Assembly: GCA_947589025.1 (NCBI GenBank) | Contig: CANQAY010000005.1 | Span: 42,684-106,683 of the forward strand | Source of the DNA: an uncultured Clostridia bacterium | Lineage (GTDB): Bacteria; Bacillota; Clostridia; Christensenellales; UBA1242 | DNA: 64,000 bases | Reading direction: 5' to 3' | Shown here: piece after piece, positions 76 to 30,455 of the stretch | Layout: each line of letters begins with the position of its first letter | Numbering within the stretch: the first letter of the stretch is position 1 | The notes under the pieces: model-generated | What the model saw: only the letters and a program-made list of their open reading frames with translations | Database searches by the model: none | What the model was told of the DNA's origin: nothing | Translations under genes and position numbers: made by a program

Positions 76-1497
76 CTATTTGCCCTCCTTATGTTTTTCC
101 ACAAAATCCGCCACCCTATAAAGCCTGCCTTCTTCAAAATGTGGGGCCAAAAATTGCATGCCAACTGGCATATTGTTTTTGCCCATGCAAAATGGCACAC
201 TAATTGCTGGCACACCCGTTATATTTGCGCTAACGGTAAACATATCTTCCATATAGGCGTCAACCGGGTTAACCTTTGCCCCAATTTTAAATGCCTCACC
301 TTTTGTGGATGGCATTAAAATAACATCGCAATTATTAAACGCTTTAAGCATATCTGCCCTAAGTTTTGCTTGCAAGCTGCGTGCCTTGTTGTAATATGCA
401 TCAAAATATCCGCTAGAAAGCACATAGTTGCCAAGCATAATGCGGCGTTTAACTTCTTTGCCAAATCCTTGGGTGCGGCTCTTTCTATAAATTTCTTCCA
501 AATTGCGGGCGTCTTTGTCCCTAAAAGTGTATTTAACGCCGTCATATCTTGCCAAATTGCTGGCAGCCTCGGCAGGTGCAATAATGTAATAAACCGGCAA
601 TGCCAACTCCATATTCTCCACCTCAACGGGCACAAGTTGGGCACCATGCTTAGTTAAAAATTGCTTCATTTTATTGTAATAGGCTTCACAATCCAGCCCT
701 TTCATCATCTTTTCAACCGAACTAATTACGCCAATTTTCATGCCGCGTATATCTTTATTTAAAAATGCGGTGTAGTTGGCAACTGGGGTGATATCGCTAG
801 TTTCGTCATTTTCGTCTCTGCCGGAAAGCACTTCCAACAGAATTGCGTTATCTTCAACCGACTTGGTTATTGGGCCAACTTGGTCTAACGAACTTGCAAA
901 GGCAATAACCCCATAGCGGGAAACCCTGCCGTAGGTTGGCTTAATGCCCACCGCCCCGCAGTAGGATGCCGGCTGACGGATTGACCCGCCCGTATCCGTG
1001 CCCAAAGCGGCGGCGCACAAATTGCCACCCACACTTGCCGCACTGCCACCCGAACTGCCGCCCGGCGAACGGGTTATATCAAACGGATTGAATGTTTTGC
1101 CATAATAACTTGTTTCCGTGCCGCTGCCCATAGCAAATTCGTCCATATTGGCGCGGGCAAACAAAACTGCCCCCTCGTTTAGCATTTTTTGTGCCACGGT
1201 GGAAGTGTACTCAGCAATATAATTTTCTAACATACGGCTGCCCGCACTTGCGTGTTTGCCTTTAACTAAAATATTATCCTTAATAATAATTGGCACGCCG
1301 GCAAGTTTACCGCTAAAACCCGATGCAATTTTTTTATCCATCTCACGCGCTTTAGTTAGTGCGTCAGCAAAAACTTCAACAACCGCGTTTAGTTTGCTGT
1401 TTTTTATTTCGTCAATATACGCTTTGGTTATTTGCTCGCTAGTAAGCTCGTGTTTTAAAATTTTTTCTCTAATCTCTTTAATGCCCAACTCTAACAT
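76..1497 (-). CDS. gatA: Asp-tRNA(Asn)/Glu-tRNA(Gln) amidotransferase subunit A
   Basis: 473 aa; amidase signature GGSSGGSAASV, upstream K in IIIKDNI, DTGGSIRQPASYCG. Confidence 0.98.
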   Translation of the reverse strand: MLELGIKEIREKILKHELTSEQITKAYIDEIKNSKLNAVVEVFADALTKAREMDKKIASGFSGKLAGVPIIIKDNILVKGKHASAGSRMLENYIAEYTSTVAQKMLNEGAVLFARANMDEFAMGSGTETSYYGKTFNPFDITRSPGGSSGGSAASVGGNLCAAALGTDTGGSIRQPASYCGAVGIKPTYGRVSRYGVIAFASSLDQVGPITKSVEDNAILLEVLSGRDENDETSDITPVANYTAFLNKDIRGMKIGVISSVEKMMKGLDCEAYYNKMKQFLTKHGAQLVPVEVENMELALPVYYIIAPAEAASNLARYDGVKYTFRDKDARNLEEIYRKSRTQGFGKEVKRRIMLGNYVLSSGYFDAYYNKARSLQAKLRADMLKAFNNCDVILMPSTKGEAFKIGAKVNPVDAYMEDMFTVSANITGVPAISVPFCMGKNNMPVGMQFLAPHFEEGRLYRVADFVEKHKEGK

Positions 1498-1499
1498 AA

Positions 1500-1784
1500 T
1501 TACTCCATAATTCTAGGCACAGAAAAGCAGCCCTTATTTTTGCTTGGTGCGTTAGATATAACTTCGGCTTGAGTTAGCCCCGGCTTGGCAACATCTTCAC
1601 GCAAGTTTGCCATATTTATAGATTGAATAAAACTTTTATCTTCCCCACTAACTTTTGCATTGTTAATTTGAGATGCAAACGCCACAATGCCGTCAAACTC
1701 GGTTAAAAAATTTTGGCGCTCTTGCTCAGTAAATTCAAGTTTAGATAGATCTTCTAAATGTTTAATTTCTTTAAGCGTAATCAT
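1500..1784 (-). CDS. gatC: Asp/Glu-tRNA amidotransferase subunit C
   Basis: 94 aa GatC-like (HLEDLSKLEFTEQE...LREDVAKPGLTQAEVISNAPSKNKGCFSVPRIME); SD AAAGGAG; directly upstream of gatA. Confidence 0.95.
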   Translation of the reverse strand: MITLKEIKHLEDLSKLEFTEQERQNFLTEFDGIVAFASQINNAKVSGEDKSFIQSINMANLREDVAKPGLTQAEVISNAPSKNKGCFSVPRIME

Positions 1785-1795
1785 AAAACTCCTTT

Positions 1796-1860
1796 AAATA
1801 AAAATCAAGGCGTGCGCCTTGAAACTTAAAAAGCAAAAGGCACACTAAAAATAGTGTTAA
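1796..1860 (-). promoter_or_regulatory. Putative transcription attenuator of gatCAB
   Basis: 1:2 ACACTA/TAGTGT (1857-1852 / 1847-1842); 2:3 antiterminator GTGTGCCTT/AAGGCGCAC (1845-1837 / 820-812 in the 1800s, i.e. 1820-1812; 9 bp, one G-U); 3:4 terminator TCAAGGC-GCAC-GCCTTGA (1822-1805) followed by TTTTTATTT. Confidence 0.7.
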
Positions 1861-1892
1861 ATGTTGTTATTATCATTAACCTTTATTTTCAT
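1857..1892 (-). CDS. Putative leaderless leader peptide MKIKVNDNNNI of gatCAB
   Basis: ATG AAA ATA AAG GTT AAT GAT AAT AAC AAC ATT TAA starts 6 nt after a perfect -10 (TATAAT); 4 Asn codons of 11; followed by attenuator-like hairpins. Confidence 0.6.
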   Translation of the reverse strand: MKIKVNDNNNI

Positions 1893-1898
1893 AATTTA

Positions 1899-1927
1899 AT
1901 TATAAATTAAATTTAACAATTTGTCAA
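1899..1927 (-). promoter_or_regulatory. Sigma-A promoter of gatCAB
   Basis: TTGACA (1927-1922), 17 nt spacer, TATAAT (1904-1899). Confidence 0.9.
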
Positions 1928-1945: not shown

Positions 1946-2416
1946 TTAGCGGGTTGCTTTTATTTTTAAAAGATGCATAAGCAAAACAAACAAAATTAAC
2001 ACAATTATTTTAGAAAAATTAAACAAAATTTTAAAATTTTTGTTAAAAACAAAGCACATTTTGCCCAAAATTGCGTTAAATTTAACAATTTGTTTGTTTT
2101 TGGCGTTATCTCCAACGCAAATGTAAATGTTATCGTCTTTAACTTCCACAATGCGGTGGGTTATTATGCTGCCGCCTAAATTATACGCCACCACATCGCC
2201 CACATTATATTGCTTAGCGGGTTTAATAAGCAAAACATCCCCCACATTTATTGTGGGGGACATGCTTTGCGATTGCACGCTTAAAATTTTAAAATTGTTA
2301 ACTTTAAAAAATATTACAAAAACAATTAAAATAATACAAATTATGGCCAGCAAAATGGAAAACACATTTTTTAAATTAAATTTATTTTTTATGTTTTCCA
2401 TACGCCATTTACCCAT
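1946..2416 (-). CDS. Signal peptidase I, SipW/ER-like (S26)
   Basis: SQSMSPTINVGDVLLIKP (Ser nucleophile), GSIITHRIVEV (His in place of Lys), N- and C-terminal TM segments. Alternative start Met at 2401. Confidence 0.88.
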   Translation of the reverse strand: MGKWRMENIKNKFNLKNVFSILLAIICIILIVFVIFFKVNNFKILSVQSQSMSPTINVGDVLLIKPAKQYNVGDVVAYNLGGSIITHRIVEVKDDNIYICVGDNAKNKQIVKFNAILGKMCFVFNKNFKILFNFSKIIVLILFVLLMHLLKIKATR

Positions 2417-5400
2417 TTAAATAATTTAATTCAACTTGGCAGTTGCCATCCTTATTGCCAACCGCACCAAGGTTAACTTTTGTGCCAGAAATTGATGTTT
2501 GTTCTGCCACATTTTGAATGTTTGTTGTGCAAGCGGTAACCGTGCTGTTGTTGGTTAACTTGCCGGCAACCACACCTAAATATATATTATTTAAATTTAG
2601 CAAATTAAATTCAAAATTAACGTTGCATTTTGTGTTGGAAATTGTAACATTATTGCCAATTGCCACCATTCCGCCAACATTAAGCTCTCGCCCGCTGCGG
2701 CTTTCGGAAATTTTGCCCGTAACGGTGCAGCTTTCTATTGTCAATTTTTCCGCATTTGCCACAATGCCGCCCAAGTTTATTGGGTTAATGCCTTCAAAAT
2801 TGATGGTAACTTCGCAATTTTTAATGCCGTAGCTGTTGTTATCCGCCTTAAAGTGCGCAACTGCGCCGGCAACCGAATTAATTCTGCTTGAGCTGGTGCT
2901 TGTTAACACAAAATTAACCGTGCTGTTTTTAGTGCTAGAACTATCCACATTATAAAGCGTTATGTTGCTGTTAATTGCCTCACCAATTAGGCCGGCAATG
3001 TAAGATGTGCCAATTGTACTTAAGCCGTAATTAACCGTAAAGCCAACATAATCTGCACTGCCCACCAAGGCGCCTTCAATGGTAACATTTTCTGCTTTGC
3101 CGGCAATTGCGCCAAGGTAAATGCTTGGGGCTTCTTGCGTGCTGCCAGCAAGGTTAATAACAACATTGTTAATGTTAACGTTTTTAATTGTGGCATTGTT
3201 AATTTGGGCTGCCAAAACGCCATAAAACATGTTTCCCGTTAAATTGTTTGCGTTAATGGTTATATTTGTTGGTTGGCTGTTTTCTCCAATTGTTAAATCG
3301 CAAACTGTGGCTTGGCTTAACAACTTGTTAAATAAGCCAAATGAATTTACATCGTTTATTTCCATGCTTGGCAACAAAATTGCGTTGTTGTTGCCATAAA
3401 GCGTGCCCGAAAATTCGTTAGCAATTAAATATCCGTTTGCAATGCGGCTAATAATCTCTTCTTGCAAAGAGGCAAAATTTATGGTTTCAATTAATTTAAA
3501 CTTCATGTTTGGCTTTAACGAAACATTTAAAAGCTCTTGTGCGGTTTTAATTAAGTATGGCTCACTATCCGTGCCCTCGCCCGCGCTAAACATGTTAATT
3601 GTTTGGCTGGCGCTAAATGTTTTAATGCTAGAATACACCCCGCCGCGCACAACTTTAACCGAAACGCTTGTGTAAATGCCCATTGTTGTAGGTTCAAAAT
3701 AATAATAGTTGTTATATGTTTTATAACTTGTGGTTTCGCTAACCAGCGCGCTTTCGGTTACAATATCGCCACCCTGCAATTTAAATTTTTGAACGGTGTA
3801 ACTTATAATAAAGCTATCGCCATCTTGGGCGTCGGTTGGCGCCGTCCAATAATACACTGAGTGTGCGGCGTCATAATAAATTTCGCCAATTGGTTGTGGG
3901 CGAACAATTTCGTTTTCAAATTCTGCCTCGTTGCCGTTAAACACAAAGCCTTCTTCGTAGCCCACTGCCCTAATTTTTATTGTAAACGCGCCAGAAAGAT
4001 TATCTGGCAAAACAAGTTGGTTTTCGGTAACGGTTTCAATGTGATTTATTTCGCCGCCATCTGGCCCGGTGTAAACCAAATTAACTTTATAGCCTTGCGC
4101 GCTGTTAACATCCTGCCAAGTTATGCTGTTGCCCTGAACGGAAACCGATTTAACAACATCCAACTTAACAAATTGCCTTGTTGCCAAACTTCTTGCCGAG
4201 GTTAAAACAGAATCGTTGCCATTTGCGGTTATATACACATAATAGTTGCCAACTGGCAAGTCGATATCGTCAAAACTAAATTCCGCTTTGTCGGACAAAT
4301 AAGTTTTGTTGTCCGCACCCTGAATTTCAATTGTGTAATTTTTGGCATTATCAACCGCGGCCCAAGTTAAAACGCCGTTGTATGATACAATGCTGGAATT
4401 TTCAATTCGGTTAAGCCTTATTACCTTAACTGCGTTAGAATAATCACTGCTTACCAAATTTACACTGTTGCCGCGCACCATAATTTGCACCAACAAAGTT
4501 TGGCTGCCGTCCAACGTAATTTGTTCACGCGAGCCAACAACCGAATAAGTATCCAACAATTTATAGCTGCTTTCGTTAGATAGTGGCACTAAAATGGTGT
4601 AAATTTGCCCAACGGTATCTTGTGCAGTAATTTTTAATGTAATGTTAGGGTTTTCGGTTGTGTTAACCCAACTTAAGGCGCCATCTTTAACGGTTATTGC
4701 TGCGCCCTCTTGCTCGCTTAAGCCGTCAATTTTTTGAAAGTTTAAAACAAAATCTTCATCTGCCGTTTTATAATAATCGCCATTAATTAAGTTGGCGTTA
4801 TCGCCACCCATGGCGCGCACTTTTACGCTGTAACTTGCATTAGGTTGCAAGTTAAACCCTGCTGCCGGATTTTTTGGCACAATATAATAAAATTTGTTGC
4901 CTTCCACCCTAACATTTGGGTTAGATTTATCGTTTATATTAATAACGTATTTTGCAAAGGCTGCATCGCCACTTTCCAATGTAATTTCATAATAATTTGC
5001 ATAGTTTGTGCGCCTGTTGTTGGTGTAAGCAACATTTGCGGCAAGCTCGCCATTTTCAAGGGCAAAAATAACATCGCCCAACTTATAGCAAGTGTATTCG
5101 GTTGTTGGGTCTTTAGCGTCAAGCAAATAGTTTGCCTCTTCCGCGCTGCTGCCCGTGCCATAGCCCGCCAAGGTTTTAATTCTTATAACATTATCGCCAA
5201 CATCCAAATAACGAGAAATATCGTAAATTATATAATCGCTAATTTCTTTATTTGTAATTTCCAAATATAAATTGTTTGTGTTGCCCGTTATCTTTTTAGC
5301 CTCTTCCTCTTTGCCGCTATAATACAAATAAATTATGGTTGGGTTGGACATAACCCCGTTTTTATAAATTCGCAATTCGTAAACTGGGTAATCTATAACT

Positions 5401-8400
5401 CCGCCATCTCTGGTTGGTTGCAAATTTCTAAATTTAAGTAAGCCACTTTCCCCCGTGGCGGTAATTTCTTCATAGCGGGTAAAGTTTTCTGCGTTGGAAT
5501 AATCGGACGTTAAATAGCCCAAATTTTCAACCGAATCTCCACCCAAAACGCTTGCCGCCAAACTTATTGTGCCGCCCTGCGCAACCGGTATGGTTGCATA
5601 GTTTGAAGAGCTGTAAGTGTAGCTGCCCGTTTCTTTATTTAATGTGCAATTTATTGGGTAATAGAACACGCTATCACTATTTAAATTAATTGTGTTGTTT
5701 TCAAAAATGTTAAAGAATATTGAACTATCCCCAATTTTGTAAATAAATTTGCCATAAAGGCCGTCAAATTCGTTTAGCACATAATTTTCATTTGCTTTTA
5801 ACAGGCTATTAGGCTTATCAATTTCGCTTTTAAATGCGTAATAATCTAGCGCATAAATTTCATAGTCGTTTTTAGTGTGAGTTGTTGTGTTGGTTATGCT
5901 AACAACAATTTTATAAAAAGGTGCATGATTTAAAAATTCGTTAGTTTCGCCTTTAAAATTATAGTTTAAATCCAACGTGGTGGTTATTGGCGAATTTATG
6001 TTTATATCGTTAGTGTTAATTAAAAATTTAAATTGACCTTTGCCAACCTGCGTTAGGCTGGTTTTTAACTTTGTTGCGGTTAGGCTAGAAAGGTTTGTGG
6101 CTTGGCTTGAAGATATTATTGGCAAGTTGGCGTTATTGTTGCCGCGCAACCTAACGTTAACCGAATAATTGCCACCCTGCAAAAGTGAAAGCACTGCGCT
6201 GTCGTTAATGGTTATAATATATTTTCTTGTTGCGGTTAAAATTGCAATTTCTTTTTCCGTTGCGCTTTTAAATGAAGCTATAGATGAAAGGGTTGTCATT
6301 TGGCTATCGGCAAACTCGGTGTTGTTATATTCAAATTTTGTAATGCGGTTATTTGCGTCCACAAATTCCAATTCGGCATAGTTAAAGAACTTGTTTGCTT
6401 CAATAACAATAGAGCCATCGTCAATTAAAACAGCGTTGGCAGTTTGCATGCGGTAAACATACAGTTTTTCAGTTGTTCGGCTGTTTAAAACGTTAGATTT
6501 TGTGCTTATTGCTTGCACTGTTACTGCATAAAGCCCATCGGTAAAATCTGGGTTAGAAAAGTCAAACAAAGTGGTTTCGGCAGCAAGTGAATATCGGTTA
6601 ATTATGCTGGTAAAATCGTGGTTATAAACGGTAACTTTATAGCTTGTGGCATTGGCCTGGCCATCCCACGCCAAACTGCCCTTAACAACATAAACATTAG
6701 GCTCGTTTAAAATGGTAAATTCATAGCTGTAAGAATAAACTGAGCAAAGCAAGTTAACATCGGTTCTTGCGCTTGGCACCGACCTTACTGCAAACGAATA
6801 CGCCCCCGCTTTAAACACCACTTCGCTATCGTCCACCCTGCCGTTGCCGTCGGCATCGTAGCCATAAGGGAATTTTATTGAATTGTTGGCAATTATTAAA
6901 TTGTAAGAATAATAATTTTCGCCTTCCTTATATTTTAATTTGTCATCGTAAGAATAATAAGTTTCTTCATCGTAAGTTAGCTTAAACACATAGCCGCTGT
7001 TAACATCTTCTTCATTAAGTTTGTTTTGTTCGTTTGGCTGCCAATTAATGCTATCCAAACTTTCGTCATCCTCGGTTGGGGAAGATTGCTTGTTTAAATT
7101 TAAAGGTGCAAACACGCCATATGCTTCATATGCTAGCTCGTTAGAATTTATGAAATAGCTAGAAGTTTCTTCCGCTGGCTCAATTTGAATTGCAAAAGTA
7201 AATTGTTCGCGGCTTAATTGCCCGGCCAAATCGTTATAATTTAACACGCTGGATGGGTCAATTATGTAACTTTCATAATGAGTTTTTTCTCTTAAACTTT
7301 CGCTAGTTAATGCCAATTTAAAAGTTTTATTTGTGGTTACATTTTTAACAATAATATAGCAATTTGCATTGTCATCTTTTAAAAGCGCTTGCACATCGGC
7401 TGGCAAATAAACAACAATTTCACCATTTTCCGTTTTAACATCTGGCTTGCCAATTTTTGTTATGTTAATTGGGGAAGATAAATTAGAATTTGTGTATTTA
7501 ACTGCACCCGCGCTGCCAACGGCAACTGCGCGCACCACAACATTAAAACTGCCCACTTCGTTTTGCAAATCGAATTCGTTAGTTAAAATAAGTTCTTTGT
7601 TAATTTTTTCATACTGCCCCGATTCCAACTGCTTATAAACATCATAGCCGGCAACAAATTCGCTTGCAATGCTAAATGTTAAATTATTTCCGTCCACGCC
7701 AACATTGTTGCAAGTTATAAGTTTTTCTAGTTCAACTTCGTCACTAACAAGGCTATCAAACAATTGCACATCTTCAAAACTTGCGCTAGACAAAAGCTTA
7801 AGTGTAAAGTAAATTATACCTTCATAATCGTTGGCGTCGGTTATGTCGTCCACCCTTATGCTGTTGCTGGCGGTTGTAAATTGCATCGATTTAATTTCGT
7901 TTGTGCTATCCGCCTGTTTTTGATATGCGGTTAAAATATATTTAATGTCCGCCTCAATGCCGTCAAGTTGGGCAGAATAAGATAAAACAACCGAATTGTC
8001 TTCCCCTCCGTTATTTTTGCTGGCAACAAGTTCGGTTTTTGGCAAGCGCCTAAATTTAAACTCGCCAGACATATTTGCAATGGTTAATTTGCCATTTGGC
8101 TCTGGGTTTAAAATTATGGCTTGCAAGCTGTTTTCTTCTAACAAATTGGTTAAGTTATCTATATTAATGCGGATGTAATCGTTGTTAGCAACGCCCTCAA
8201 AACTATCCAAAACTTCGCCGTTTAGCAAAAGTTTGTAATTTTCAATTTTGCGGGTTTCAAGGTTAGAAATTAAAATTTCTTGGTTTTCCCTTAAAACATT
8301 AGGGGCGGAAATTAAGCTAATTTCTTGCTCGGCATCAAAATTGCTAAATGCCACAATGTCGTTGCCGGTGGAGTTGGTTTTATACATAACTTGCACGGTA

Positions 8401-11024
8401 AAATTGTTGGTTATTGGCAAAATGTTTTTATAATTATTTTGCAAGGTTACAACATAGCTGTTGCCGTCATAGCTAAATGGCAACGATATGCCATCCGCCA
8501 CCAAATTGTTTGCGCTTTGCTCAAAATTATAATCCTTGCCATCAATTTTAATTTTTAATGCCAAAATGTATTGTGCGGTGTGATTAAACGGCGTTATTTT
8601 TAATTTATAACTATCCTCAATTTCGTAGTTAGATTTTTCATAAATTTTGTTAATAATAATTGTCTGTTCGTCAGAATTTAAATAAAAATTGTAGCCCTCA
8701 CCAACTTTGGCGTTGGTTATAACGGTTATTGTGTTTTCTCCCGTTCTTTCGTTGGCAATTAAATTTAAGGTAGAGTTAAAATCAACCTCATTGCCGTTTA
8801 GTTTAACCGTGTAAGGCTTAGAAGACAAAACGCCCGCTTCTGCATTTGGGTTGTTGGCGGTTAGTTTGCTTTGCTCGCTGTTATATTTAATTGTGGCACT
8901 TTTTAGTTTGCTAACCGAAATTGCCTCAGACATTTTAGAGTTAAAATAATCCACTCCATCGCCCACCGTTCTGGCTGCAAAATTTAAAGTTTGCCCCTCA
9001 TAAATTTCAATGTTAAAATAGTTGTTGGTAAAATTGTTTTTAAATTCGCCACCGTTTAGGGTGATGTTATAGCCATAAGCGTTACTAATTGCATCAAAGT
9101 TAACTTGCATTGTTGCCGCATCCAAAACTTTTAAAGTTGGGCAATCAAGCACGGTAAATTCGCGCTTTGCCATGGCATCGTTAAACACCGAAAAAGTGTG
9201 CACGCCATCGCCTTCCACCTTAACGCAAATTGAATAGGTTTTGGTTTGGTAAAATTCATCGTCAGTGTCAATATACACGCTATCGCCATCGTAGGTTTTT
9301 GTGTTTTCGCCATCCGAAACAACAAAACTTATTTGTGCCGATTGATTAACCAAAGTTTTTTCAACCGACGCAGTTTGCTCAGCCATGTTAATGTTTAAAA
9401 TTTCTTCAAGTTGGGTAAAGGCTATGCCGCTTGGCTCACTATCAAAACACGCTTGGCCTTCGCCCATTGGTTTGCCCAAATGTTTAACATAAATTGTGTG
9501 CCTGCCCGAAGCAATGTAAAAATCTTTAAACGTTTTAAAATTTACGCTAAATTTATTTTCTTTATTTTCACCCGAAGTTATGGTGTGTGCAATGTCGTCT
9601 ATATAAACTAAATATTCATCTTCTGCTTCGCTATCAAAAGTTAGCACATGGTCTTTTAAATTTGCATAAGTTAGGCTAACTTCTGCCTGCTTTGTAATTT
9701 CAATTTGCGCATTGTCCGATGCTAGGTAATAAATGCCATTATCCTGCCCTGCCATTGCGCTAACGGTTACAACATATTGCCCACTTTCTTTGCCGTCAAA
9801 CTTAATTTGATTGGCGCTAGAAACAGTGGTTGTGGTTTTGCCGTTATGTTGCTCGTTAATTTCATAGTTGTCAGTTCCGTCCCACAAAATTGTGTTGTTT
9901 AGCGTGCTTAAAACTGGGGCGGCTTTTTTGCTAAATTCAACTTCAATTTTTGTTTCGGTTGTGGCGGTGTTAAAAACAAATTCGTCAACAACTGGCTCAA
10001 CTAAAACGGTGTAAACAGCCTCGGCTTCAATTAAATTAAATTTGGTTAAATTGGTTAAATTAAAGCTGTTATTTTCTGCCGTGGCGGTTTCAAAAACGCT
10101 GCCCAAATTTTTTATTGTTATGTTAAAGTTAACATCCGCATCCGCCCAACTAATTACATTGCCCGAAAATTGTGCACTAAACGCAGGCAACACATTTAGC
10201 GGCAAATTAATGCTGTTGCCAAAATAAGTTACGCCCTCGCTTTTGGTTTTAAATTCGCCCGCAATTTTAACATTAACATTTTTGCCGGCAAATTTAGGGT
10301 CAAGTGCGGTTAAATCCACCCCGTCTTGCAGGGTTAAAGTTGGCAAAGTTTCGTCATCTAAACTTATAATGTAATTAACATCATCTCGCACATCAAAACT
10401 AAGTTTGCCCGCTTTAATGCTTGCGTTGGAAATTGCAAAAACACAATATTCGCCCGACCAATCCGAACTTTCAAACACTTTGCTGCCCGCCGCCGCATTT
10501 GCTTTAACTTTTAAGGTTAAAAGGTCGGCAGAAAATCTATTTACCAAACCTTGCAAATCTATTTGAGTTTCTGCAACATTAAATTCATTTTCGTTAACCA
10601 CTAAAGTGTAATCGTTAGCGTAAGGCACTGGGCTTATGTAAATTTGTTGTGTTGCCTCGTTAAAACTTAAGCTTGGGGTTTTAATTTTGCTAGGCTCGTT
10701 TAAAACGGTTACATTAATTGCACTTTCAATTGCTTCATTTTGGGTTGCCCTAACTTTAATTAGCGCATTGCCCTGACTTATTGCCTCAATTTCTTTGCCA
10801 TTAATTTTAACAATGTTTTCGTCGGAAGAAATTAAATAATAATCAGACGAATAGGTTGGGTAAACTTCCACTGTGGGAGTAAAGCGCTCACCAACAAGCA
10901 AATTAATTTCGTCATCTAAAAAATTAATATCTTCAACAATGGGTTTTTGTTCGCACCCAAAAAACATCAGGCCCGCCAAGGCCAAAATTATAAACACAAA
11001 AATTTTAGCTTTTGTTTTAGACAT
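2409..11024 (-). CDS. Giant secreted lipoprotein (2871 aa) with Big2-like domain, many FN3/Ig-like repeats and C-terminal GLUG-like repeats
   Basis: Signal plus lipobox LAGLMFFGCEQ; INLLVGERFTPTVEVYP; recurring SWxxVxxAxxYxVxI units; C-terminal GAIAGKAENVTIEG / GGMVAIGNNVTISN repeats; SD AAGGGGGAA. Confidence 0.85.
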   Translation of the reverse strand: MSKTKAKIFVFIILALAGLMFFGCEQKPIVEDINFLDDEINLLVGERFTPTVEVYPTYSSDYYLISSDENIVKINGKEIEAISQGNALIKVRATQNEAIESAINVTVLNEPSKIKTPSLSFNEATQQIYISPVPYANDYTLVVNENEFNVAETQIDLQGLVNRFSADLLTLKVKANAAAGSKVFESSDWSGEYCVFAISNASIKAGKLSFDVRDDVNYIISLDDETLPTLTLQDGVDLTALDPKFAGKNVNVKIAGEFKTKSEGVTYFGNSINLPLNVLPAFSAQFSGNVISWADADVNFNITIKNLGSVFETATAENNSFNLTNLTKFNLIEAEAVYTVLVEPVVDEFVFNTATTETKIEVEFSKKAAPVLSTLNNTILWDGTDNYEINEQHNGKTTTTVSSANQIKFDGKESGQYVVTVSAMAGQDNGIYYLASDNAQIEITKQAEVSLTYANLKDHVLTFDSEAEDEYLVYIDDIAHTITSGENKENKFSVNFKTFKDFYIASGRHTIYVKHLGKPMGEGQACFDSEPSGIAFTQLEEILNINMAEQTASVEKTLVNQSAQISFVVSDGENTKTYDGDSVYIDTDDEFYQTKTYSICVKVEGDGVHTFSVFNDAMAKREFTVLDCPTLKVLDAATMQVNFDAISNAYGYNITLNGGEFKNNFTNNYFNIEIYEGQTLNFAARTVGDGVDYFNSKMSEAISVSKLKSATIKYNSEQSKLTANNPNAEAGVLSSKPYTVKLNGNEVDFNSTLNLIANERTGENTITVITNAKVGEGYNFYLNSDEQTIIINKIYEKSNYEIEDSYKLKITPFNHTAQYILALKIKIDGKDYNFEQSANNLVADGISLPFSYDGNSYVVTLQNNYKNILPITNNFTVQVMYKTNSTGNDIVAFSNFDAEQEISLISAPNVLRENQEILISNLETRKIENYKLLLNGEVLDSFEGVANNDYIRINIDNLTNLLEENSLQAIILNPEPNGKLTIANMSGEFKFRRLPKTELVASKNNGGEDNSVVLSYSAQLDGIEADIKYILTAYQKQADSTNEIKSMQFTTASNSIRVDDITDANDYEGIIYFTLKLLSSASFEDVQLFDSLVSDEVELEKLITCNNVGVDGNNLTFSIASEFVAGYDVYKQLESGQYEKINKELILTNEFDLQNEVGSFNVVVRAVAVGSAGAVKYTNSNLSSPINITKIGKPDVKTENGEIVVYLPADVQALLKDDNANCYIIVKNVTTNKTFKLALTSESLREKTHYESYIIDPSSVLNYNDLAGQLSREQFTFAIQIEPAEETSSYFINSNELAYEAYGVFAPLNLNKQSSPTEDDESLDSINWQPNEQNKLNEEDVNSGYVFKLTYDEETYYSYDDKLKYKEGENYYSYNLIIANNSIKFPYGYDADGNGRVDDSEVVFKAGAYSFAVRSVPSARTDVNLLCSVYSYSYEFTILNEPNVYVVKGSLAWDGQANATSYKVTVYNHDFTSIINRYSLAAETTLFDFSNPDFTDGLYAVTVQAISTKSNVLNSRTTEKLYVYRMQTANAVLIDDGSIVIEANKFFNYAELEFVDANNRITKFEYNNTEFADSQMTTLSSIASFKSATEKEIAILTATRKYIITINDSAVLSLLQGGNYSVNVRLRGNNNANLPIISSSQATNLSSLTATKLKTSLTQVGKGQFKFLINTNDININSPITTTLDLNYNFKGETNEFLNHAPFYKIVVSITNTTTHTKNDYEIYALDYYAFKSEIDKPNSLLKANENYVLNEFDGLYGKFIYKIGDSSIFFNIFENNTINLNSDSVFYYPINCTLNKETGSYTYSSSNYATIPVAQGGTISLAASVLGGDSVENLGYLTSDYSNAENFTRYEEITATGESGLLKFRNLQPTRDGGVIDYPVYELRIYKNGVMSNPTIIYLYYSGKEEEAKKITGNTNNLYLEITNKEISDYIIYDISRYLDVGDNVIRIKTLAGYGTGSSAEEANYLLDAKDPTTEYTCYKLGDVIFALENGELAANVAYTNNRRTNYANYYEITLESGDAAFAKYVININDKSNPNVRVEGNKFYYIVPKNPAAGFNLQPNASYSVKVRAMGGDNANLINGDYYKTADEDFVLNFQKIDGLSEQEGAAITVKDGALSWVNTTENPNITLKITAQDTVGQIYTILVPLSNESSYKLLDTYSVVGSREQITLDGSQTLLVQIMVRGNSVNLVSSDYSNAVKVIRLNRIENSSIVSYNGVLTWAAVDNAKNYTIEIQGADNKTYLSDKAEFSFDDIDLPVGNYYVYITANGNDSVLTSARSLATRQFVKLDVVKSVSVQGNSITWQDVNSAQGYKVNLVYTGPDGGEINHIETVTENQLVLPDNLSGAFTIKIRAVGYEEGFVFNGNEAEFENEIVRPQPIGEIYYDAAHSVYYWTAPTDAQDGDSFIISYTVQKFKLQGGDIVTESALVSETTSYKTYNNYYYFEPTTMGIYTSVSVKVVRGGVYSSIKTFSASQTINMFSAGEGTDSEPYLIKTAQELLNVSLKPNMKFKLIETINFASLQEEIISRIANGYLIANEFSGTLYGNNNAILLPSMEINDVNSFGLFNKLLSQATVCDLTIGENSQPTNITINANNLTGNMFYGVLAAQINNATIKNVNINNVVINLAGSTQEAPSIYLGAIAGKAENVTIEGALVGSADYVGFTVNYGLSTIGTSYIAGLIGEAINSNITLYNVDSSSTKNSTVNFVLTSTSSSRINSVAGAVAHFKADNNSYGIKNCEVTINFEGINPINLGGIVANAEKLTIESCTVTGKISESRSGRELNVGGMVAIGNNVTISNTKCNVNFEFNLLNLNNIYLGVVAGKLTNNSTVTACTTNIQNVAEQTSISGTKVNLGAVGNKDGNCQVELNYLNG

Positions 11025-30187: not shown

Positions 30188-30455
30188 AAATTCGCCCAAA
30201 GTAAAATTTACTTATAGGGCGATTTGATTCGCTGTACCACCTAAGATTCGCAGTCTGCGCCATTGCTCATTTGCTAAAATGCGCAAACCACCTCATTACA
30301 TTTTCACAGTTTTGTCTGGCACAAGTTCGCTTGTGCAACTCGGATGCTGAAATTCATTTGCCCGCTGAACATAAGTGTTTTACAGCCACGAACACTTTTC
30401 TCTATCTGAAACGGACAAACTACTGCACACATCGTCACAGTTTTTATTTAGTTAA
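30188..30455 (-). ncRNA. T-box riboswitch, Phe specific
   Basis: T-box AGGTGGTACAGCG; specifier loop ATGTTCA with UUC (30369-30367) beside stem GTTTGTCCGT/GCGGGCAAAT; UGGU bulge; terminator CGCCC...GGGCG then T-run. Confidence 0.92.

Follow-up and report, generated by a model that had tools for sequence, protein, structure and literature searches.

The leader of the gatCAB operon described here is very likely a ribosome-mediated transcription attenuator with asparagine as its regulatory codons. It lies on the minus strand of a 64,000-nucleotide stretch of DNA from an uncultured Clostridia bacterium (the window), and it appears to let the cell raise its Asn-tRNA machinery only when asparaginyl-tRNA is short. 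Many relatives among the uncultured Clostridia of the gut share it. An earlier note on this DNA had proposed trp/his-type attenuation that senses Asn-tRNA, and comparative data from related leaders (conservation, covariation of the antiterminator helix and codon constraint) argue for that reading. All of the evidence is sequence-based and comes mostly from metagenome-assembled genomes.

The operon runs in the order leader-gatC-gatA-gatB-aspS. Its first two genes, both above their NCBIfam cut-offs, lie in the window, and gatB and a bacterial-type aspS (AspRS, TIGR00459, 2.8e-184) come next on the same contig, beyond the window (L235). The elements of the leader and the two genes are as follows.

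1899-1927, minus strand: promoter TTGACA-17-TATAAT, its -10 ending 6 nt before the leader ATG
1857-1892, minus strand: leader ORF MKIKVNDNNNI, 11 codons with four Asn and one Asp codon, conserved in relatives
1852-1857, minus strand: segment 1, ACACTA, overlapping the last base of the stop codon
1837-1847, minus strand: segment 2, TAGTGTGCCTT, partner of segment 1 or segment 3
1812-1822, minus strand: segment 3, TCAAGGCGCAC, partner of segment 2 (antiterminator) or segment 4 (terminator)
1797-1811, minus strand: segment 4, GCCTTGA (1811-1805), with the U tract; intrinsic terminator 3:4
1500-1784, minus strand: gatC, first gene of the operon (TIGR00135, 69.8 bits against a cut-off of 47.1)
76-1497, minus strand: gatA (TIGR00132, 1.4e-165)

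The promoter, the 11-codon ORF and the three pairings that the earlier note had described were all found, base for base, in these places. The -35 TTGACA (1927-1922) and the -10 TATAAT (1904-1899), separated by a spacer of 17, match the consensus at 12 of 12 positions, and the ATG at 1892 is the predicted +1. The ORF reads ATG AAA ATA AAG GTT AAT GAT AAT AAC AAC ATT TAA, and its stop codon is only about 65 nt from the gatC SD. Downstream of the Asn codons, ACACTA (1857-1852) pairs with TAGTGT (1847-1842) to form 1:2, GTGTGCCTT (1845-1837) pairs with AAGGCGCAC (1820-1812) over 9 bp with one G-U to form 2:3, and TCAAGGC (1822-1816) pairs with GCCTTGA (1811-1805) to form 3:4, which is followed by TTTTTATTT, the SD and gatC. 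Because they share segments, the three pairings are mutually exclusive. Their predicted folding energies are -6.1, -14.0 and -10.2 kcal/mol, respectively, and the 62-nt leader (segment 1 to U tract) has a folding score of z = -4.4, none of 200 dinucleotide shuffles being equally stable. On the other side of the leader, just upstream of the gat operon, lies a gene for an archaeal-type signal peptidase I (1946-2416, TIGR02228), which follows a gene for a 2871-residue repetitive surface-type protein with a lipoprotein-signal-like N-terminus (2409-11024, minus strand).

Ribosome-mediated attenuation is a classical mechanism, of the trp/his/pheST type in enteric bacteria. Like those attenuators, the gatC leader combines a short ORF carrying a run of codons for the regulated amino acid, the 1:2/2:3/3:4 architecture, a U tract and a downstream operon; unlike them, it uses Asn codons and, in part of the family, a leaderless start. 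Its target is tRNA-dependent amidation (gatCAB, aspS or aspS2) and not amino-acid biosynthesis. According to the proposed mechanism, the first base of the RNA would be the A of the leader's ATG, and ribosomes would load directly on this leaderless ORF. With ample Asn-tRNA(Asn), the ribosome would complete the 11 codons and leave, segment 1 would hold segment 2, and the 3:4 terminator would end transcription before gatC. When Asn-tRNA(Asn) is scarce, the ribosome would stall in the NDNNN run with its leading edge blocking the pairing of segment 1; the 2:3 antiterminator would then form and RNA polymerase would read through into gatC-gatA-gatB-aspS, resulting in more Asn-tRNA(Asn) via amidation of Asp-tRNA(Asn). 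The 3' edge of a ribosome extends about 10 nt beyond the A-site codon, so a stall at the last Asn codons would cover segment 1 and free segment 2, which lies about 16 nt past the last of them. A ribosome stalled at the first Asn codons would not extend over segment 1, and the later codons would therefore have to matter most. Since 2:3 is stronger than 1:2, termination under plenty would rely on kinetics, with 1:2 forming first. Translation of the leader ORF, stalling as the trigger and the way in which the operon responds are inferences from sequence.

In an AT-rich genome where Asn is common (about 10% of residues), a simple-sequence Asn tract might arise by chance next to a terminator that is either an ordinary constitutive attenuator or belongs to an upstream gene. 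We regard such a coincidence as highly improbable. ATG mini-ORFs with at least four Asn in eight codons occur twice in the whole window (both strands, 128 kb of strand), and a terminator follows within 130 nt in one of the two cases, the gatC leader. When the same combination of Asn ORF and terminator was sought in the related loci and the window together (995,572 strand-bases), it gave 56 copies at the expected places, a count in which the same locus can appear more than once, and a single unrelated copy elsewhere. Moreover, AAT and AAC are mixed in frame: the runs of 33 distinct leaders hold 156 AAT and 67 AAC codons, plus 14 Asp codons, versus two AAA and no AAG, as expected if the codons of the run are read. 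Conservation across genera, together with compensatory changes in 2:3, excludes a chance origin of the Asn tract.

GatC and GatA co-occur in the same 9 of the 34 genomes of the window's genus. An Asn-rich leader ORF with a terminator was found in seven of the eight genus members with a readable gatC upstream, the window included (examples are MIILANDNNNNI, MIIKANNNDNNNN, MLILNNNDNNLD and MIITIINNNNNNNLNHI), and the eighth, L007, lacks the ORF as well as the terminator. No terminator kept without Asn codons was seen among the related loci examined, the terminator being itself a search criterion in compiling the Asn-leader loci. As to the rest of the genus, 25 of its 34 genomes lack GatCAB, and among these are some, such as G003 (96% complete), in which no GlnRS passes its cut-off either.

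Asn leaders with terminators are also present upstream of gatC in many other genera of the family. They further precede the archaeal-type aspS2-gatCAB operon in seven loci (L056, L059, L061, L062, L064, L065 and L068) and aspS2-asnS, clearly in L079 and weakly in L072. The covariance model R1 matched 22 of 310 family genomes, once in each, with gatC-gatA or aspS2 as the next genes in the 21 loci parsed. A search of 396 genomes of the order with R1, a model that would miss other leader types, returned matches in family members only; about 30 gatA upstreams from the order, outside the family, and about 60 gatA loci from other phyla revealed no Asn leader. For many of the family's gatC genes the preceding gene is ligA or aspS, and no leader was seen there. 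Since both L007 and the gatC genes linked to ligA do without an attenuator, it is not essential for gatCAB.

Two further observations concern individual loci of the family. One genome (G054) carries two gatCA copies (L023 and L024), with the Asn leader at the copy at C1:113285 only. In five loci (L059, L061, L064, L068 and L199) a second small ORF lies between the Asn attenuator and aspS2; its motif is [ND]A[VL]AG[EG], as in MVYKMSNALAGEYVMTDAR and SNDAVAGE, and the DNA pattern GCC..GC.GGC is conserved too. Rfam searches of this region gave no convincing match, and it is possibly a second regulatory element of aspS2.

In the comparison of related leaders that the earlier note had suggested, Asn-rich mini-ORFs and the terminator are preserved, as is an alternative antiterminator in which compensatory changes occur. 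Pairing in the 2:3 helix reaches 94.9% across the 15 aligned leaders, and both sides have changed at four pairs. Its covariation of 0.432, versus 0.219 after shuffling, was reached by none of 500 shuffles, and at every slid register the score fell well below the true value. A simple duplex test against shuffled spacers favored 2:3 at p<0.05 in 27 of the 33 distinct leaders and missed that level in six; these leaders share ancestry and their p-values are not independent. The 1:2 helix is 86.7% paired in the same 15 leaders, with weak, non-significant covariation and an about equal score when the register is slid by 2. Compensatory change is thus strong for the antiterminator but weak for 1:2.

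These comparisons also bear on the notion that a binding protein controls the terminator-antiterminator switch and that the ORF is incidental. No experiment speaks against such a protein; however, the antiterminator sequence varies between genera while its pairing is kept, so that no obvious common site is left except a CCTTTTG stretch, and the Asn codons would go unexplained. We give this reading hardly any credence. A nascent-chain arrest peptide, in which a poly-Asn motif would sense something else, such as an antibiotic or a metabolite, is somewhat better founded and still quite improbable. Arrest-peptide regulators use the same anatomy of an ORF plus alternative hairpins, and in some relatives the run reaches up to 9 Asn. 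Arrest peptides usually retain specific residues, whereas here only Asn (with some Asp) is conserved, the flanking residues vary freely, and the controlled genes make Asn-tRNA.

The start of the leader ORF divides the family. Placing the start by the consensus promoter, we found a distance of 6-7 nt from the -10 to the ATG and no SD in 10 of the 33 leaders (L001-L005, L024, L028, L036, L056 and L197); the window's leader, with 6 nt, and nine others make up this set. The remaining leaders have 15-26 nt and an SD; the exception is L062, which probably starts at a later ATG preceded by an SD of its own. This split of spacing and SD into two groups supports a genuine leaderless form in part of the family, the window's subgroup included. 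The leaderless leader peptide postulated in the earlier note accordingly holds for that genus subgroup but not for the family as a whole, in which nearly all other leaders have an SD.

In the window's genome (G000, 99% complete) the class IIb synthetases found were AspRS and LysRS only; no AsnRS over cut-off and no AsnA were found. AsnB was not found either, the PF00733 matches being confined to small portions of ORFs that fall short of AsnB length. One such match covers about 70 residues (24.5 bits) of a 363-residue ORF, which is probably a tRNA thiolase such as MnmA. Without AsnRS or asparagine synthetase found in this genome, Asn-tRNA is probably made only by the AspRS and GatCAB of the leader's own operon. 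When aligned, the histidine of RDHGG in this AspRS also occurs in the P. aeruginosa enzyme, known from a solved transamidosome (4wj3), while the E. coli enzyme has leucine there; a second position, with Tyr in this AspRS, Gly in the P. aeruginosa one and Lys in that of E. coli, is uninformative. Both are positions that we take to be relevant to discrimination. Since no GlnRS over cut-off was found in this genome, its GatCAB probably also makes Gln-tRNA, a product that the leader does not sense. Three relatives (G008, G010 and G013) possess a GlnRS and carry the Asn leader too.

Because Asn-tRNA(Asn) in this genome probably comes only from the operon that the leader controls, we lean slightly towards a closed loop, in which the ribosome would gauge the output of tRNA-dependent amidation rather than amino-acid supply. 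Asp codons are mixed into the run in several leaders and aspS belongs to the same operon, so these codons may add sensing of AspRS output.

T-boxes operate at the same operons. An RF00230 T-box stands in the place of the Asn leader in seven relatives (L066, L067, L073, L075, L076, L078 and L081), ahead of AspRS-gatCAB or aspS2-asnS, and one T-box lies in the window itself.

30212-30447, minus strand: T-box leader (RF00230, 78.8 bits, below gathering), upstream of pheS-pheT
30169-29141, minus strand: pheS
28862-26481, minus strand: pheT

The T-box before pheS-pheT indicates that T-box and ribosome attenuators coexist in the window's genome. We weighed whether the gatC leader is itself a T-box riboswitch with uncharged tRNA(Asn) as its direct ligand. 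In relatives, aspS2-gatCAB and aspS2-asnS are under T-box control, and a T-box on the transamidation pathway is known in Clostridium acetobutylicum (Saad et al. 2012, 2013, described in PMC4052509 and cited in PMC4206432). Nevertheless, Rfam gave no T-box match near the window's gatC even at E values up to 1 and none in any Asn-leader locus tested, a T-box core sequence is lacking, and the interval from stop codon to SD is short. These scans lead us to reject the T-box reading of the gatC leader, and the chance that it is right seems very small.

Open-licence papers yielded no report of Asn-codon attenuation or of gatCAB as a target of attenuation, and no Rfam family for it was found. The earlier note's view that attenuation of gatCAB is undescribed stands to that extent, but control of the pathway by an Asn-tRNA-responsive T-box is on record for C. 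acetobutylicum (PMC4052509). That T-box resembles the gatC leader in its signal, tRNA(Asn) charging, in the pathway and in antitermination at low charging; it differs in binding uncharged tRNA directly, without leader ORF or ribosome, and in sensing tRNA(Glu) as well. The sensor of the gatC leader, in contrast, would be the translating ribosome. In the set covered by a survey of 2008, no amidotransferase gene was found to have a T-box before it (PMC2494555), and his attenuators have been reported in the Bacillus cereus group, Eubacteriales and Erysipelotrichales (PMC9413887). The closest parallel to the leaderless start comes from mycobacteria (Canestrari et al. 2020, cited in PMC13236596), where leaderless poly-Cys short ORFs likewise combine a mini-ORF and a homopolymeric run with control of a downstream operon. 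Those ORFs use cysteine and occur in Actinobacteria, whereas the gatC leader uses asparagine and occurs in Clostridia; PMC13236596 places cysteine genes under translation attenuation, and the gatC leader has an intrinsic terminator instead.

The proposed attenuator would extend ribosome-mediated attenuation to a further amino acid, asparagine, and a further target, the transamidation pathway, and would do so in Clostridia, where T-boxes usually do such work. T-box and leader-peptide control swap at the same operons of relatives, so that replacement of one sensor by the other can be traced directly. The leader of the window would be a compact leaderless case, in which transcription and ribosome loading begin at one base. 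It may also offer a natural reporter for the level of Asn-tRNA(Asn) in organisms whose only asparagine synthesis takes place on tRNA.
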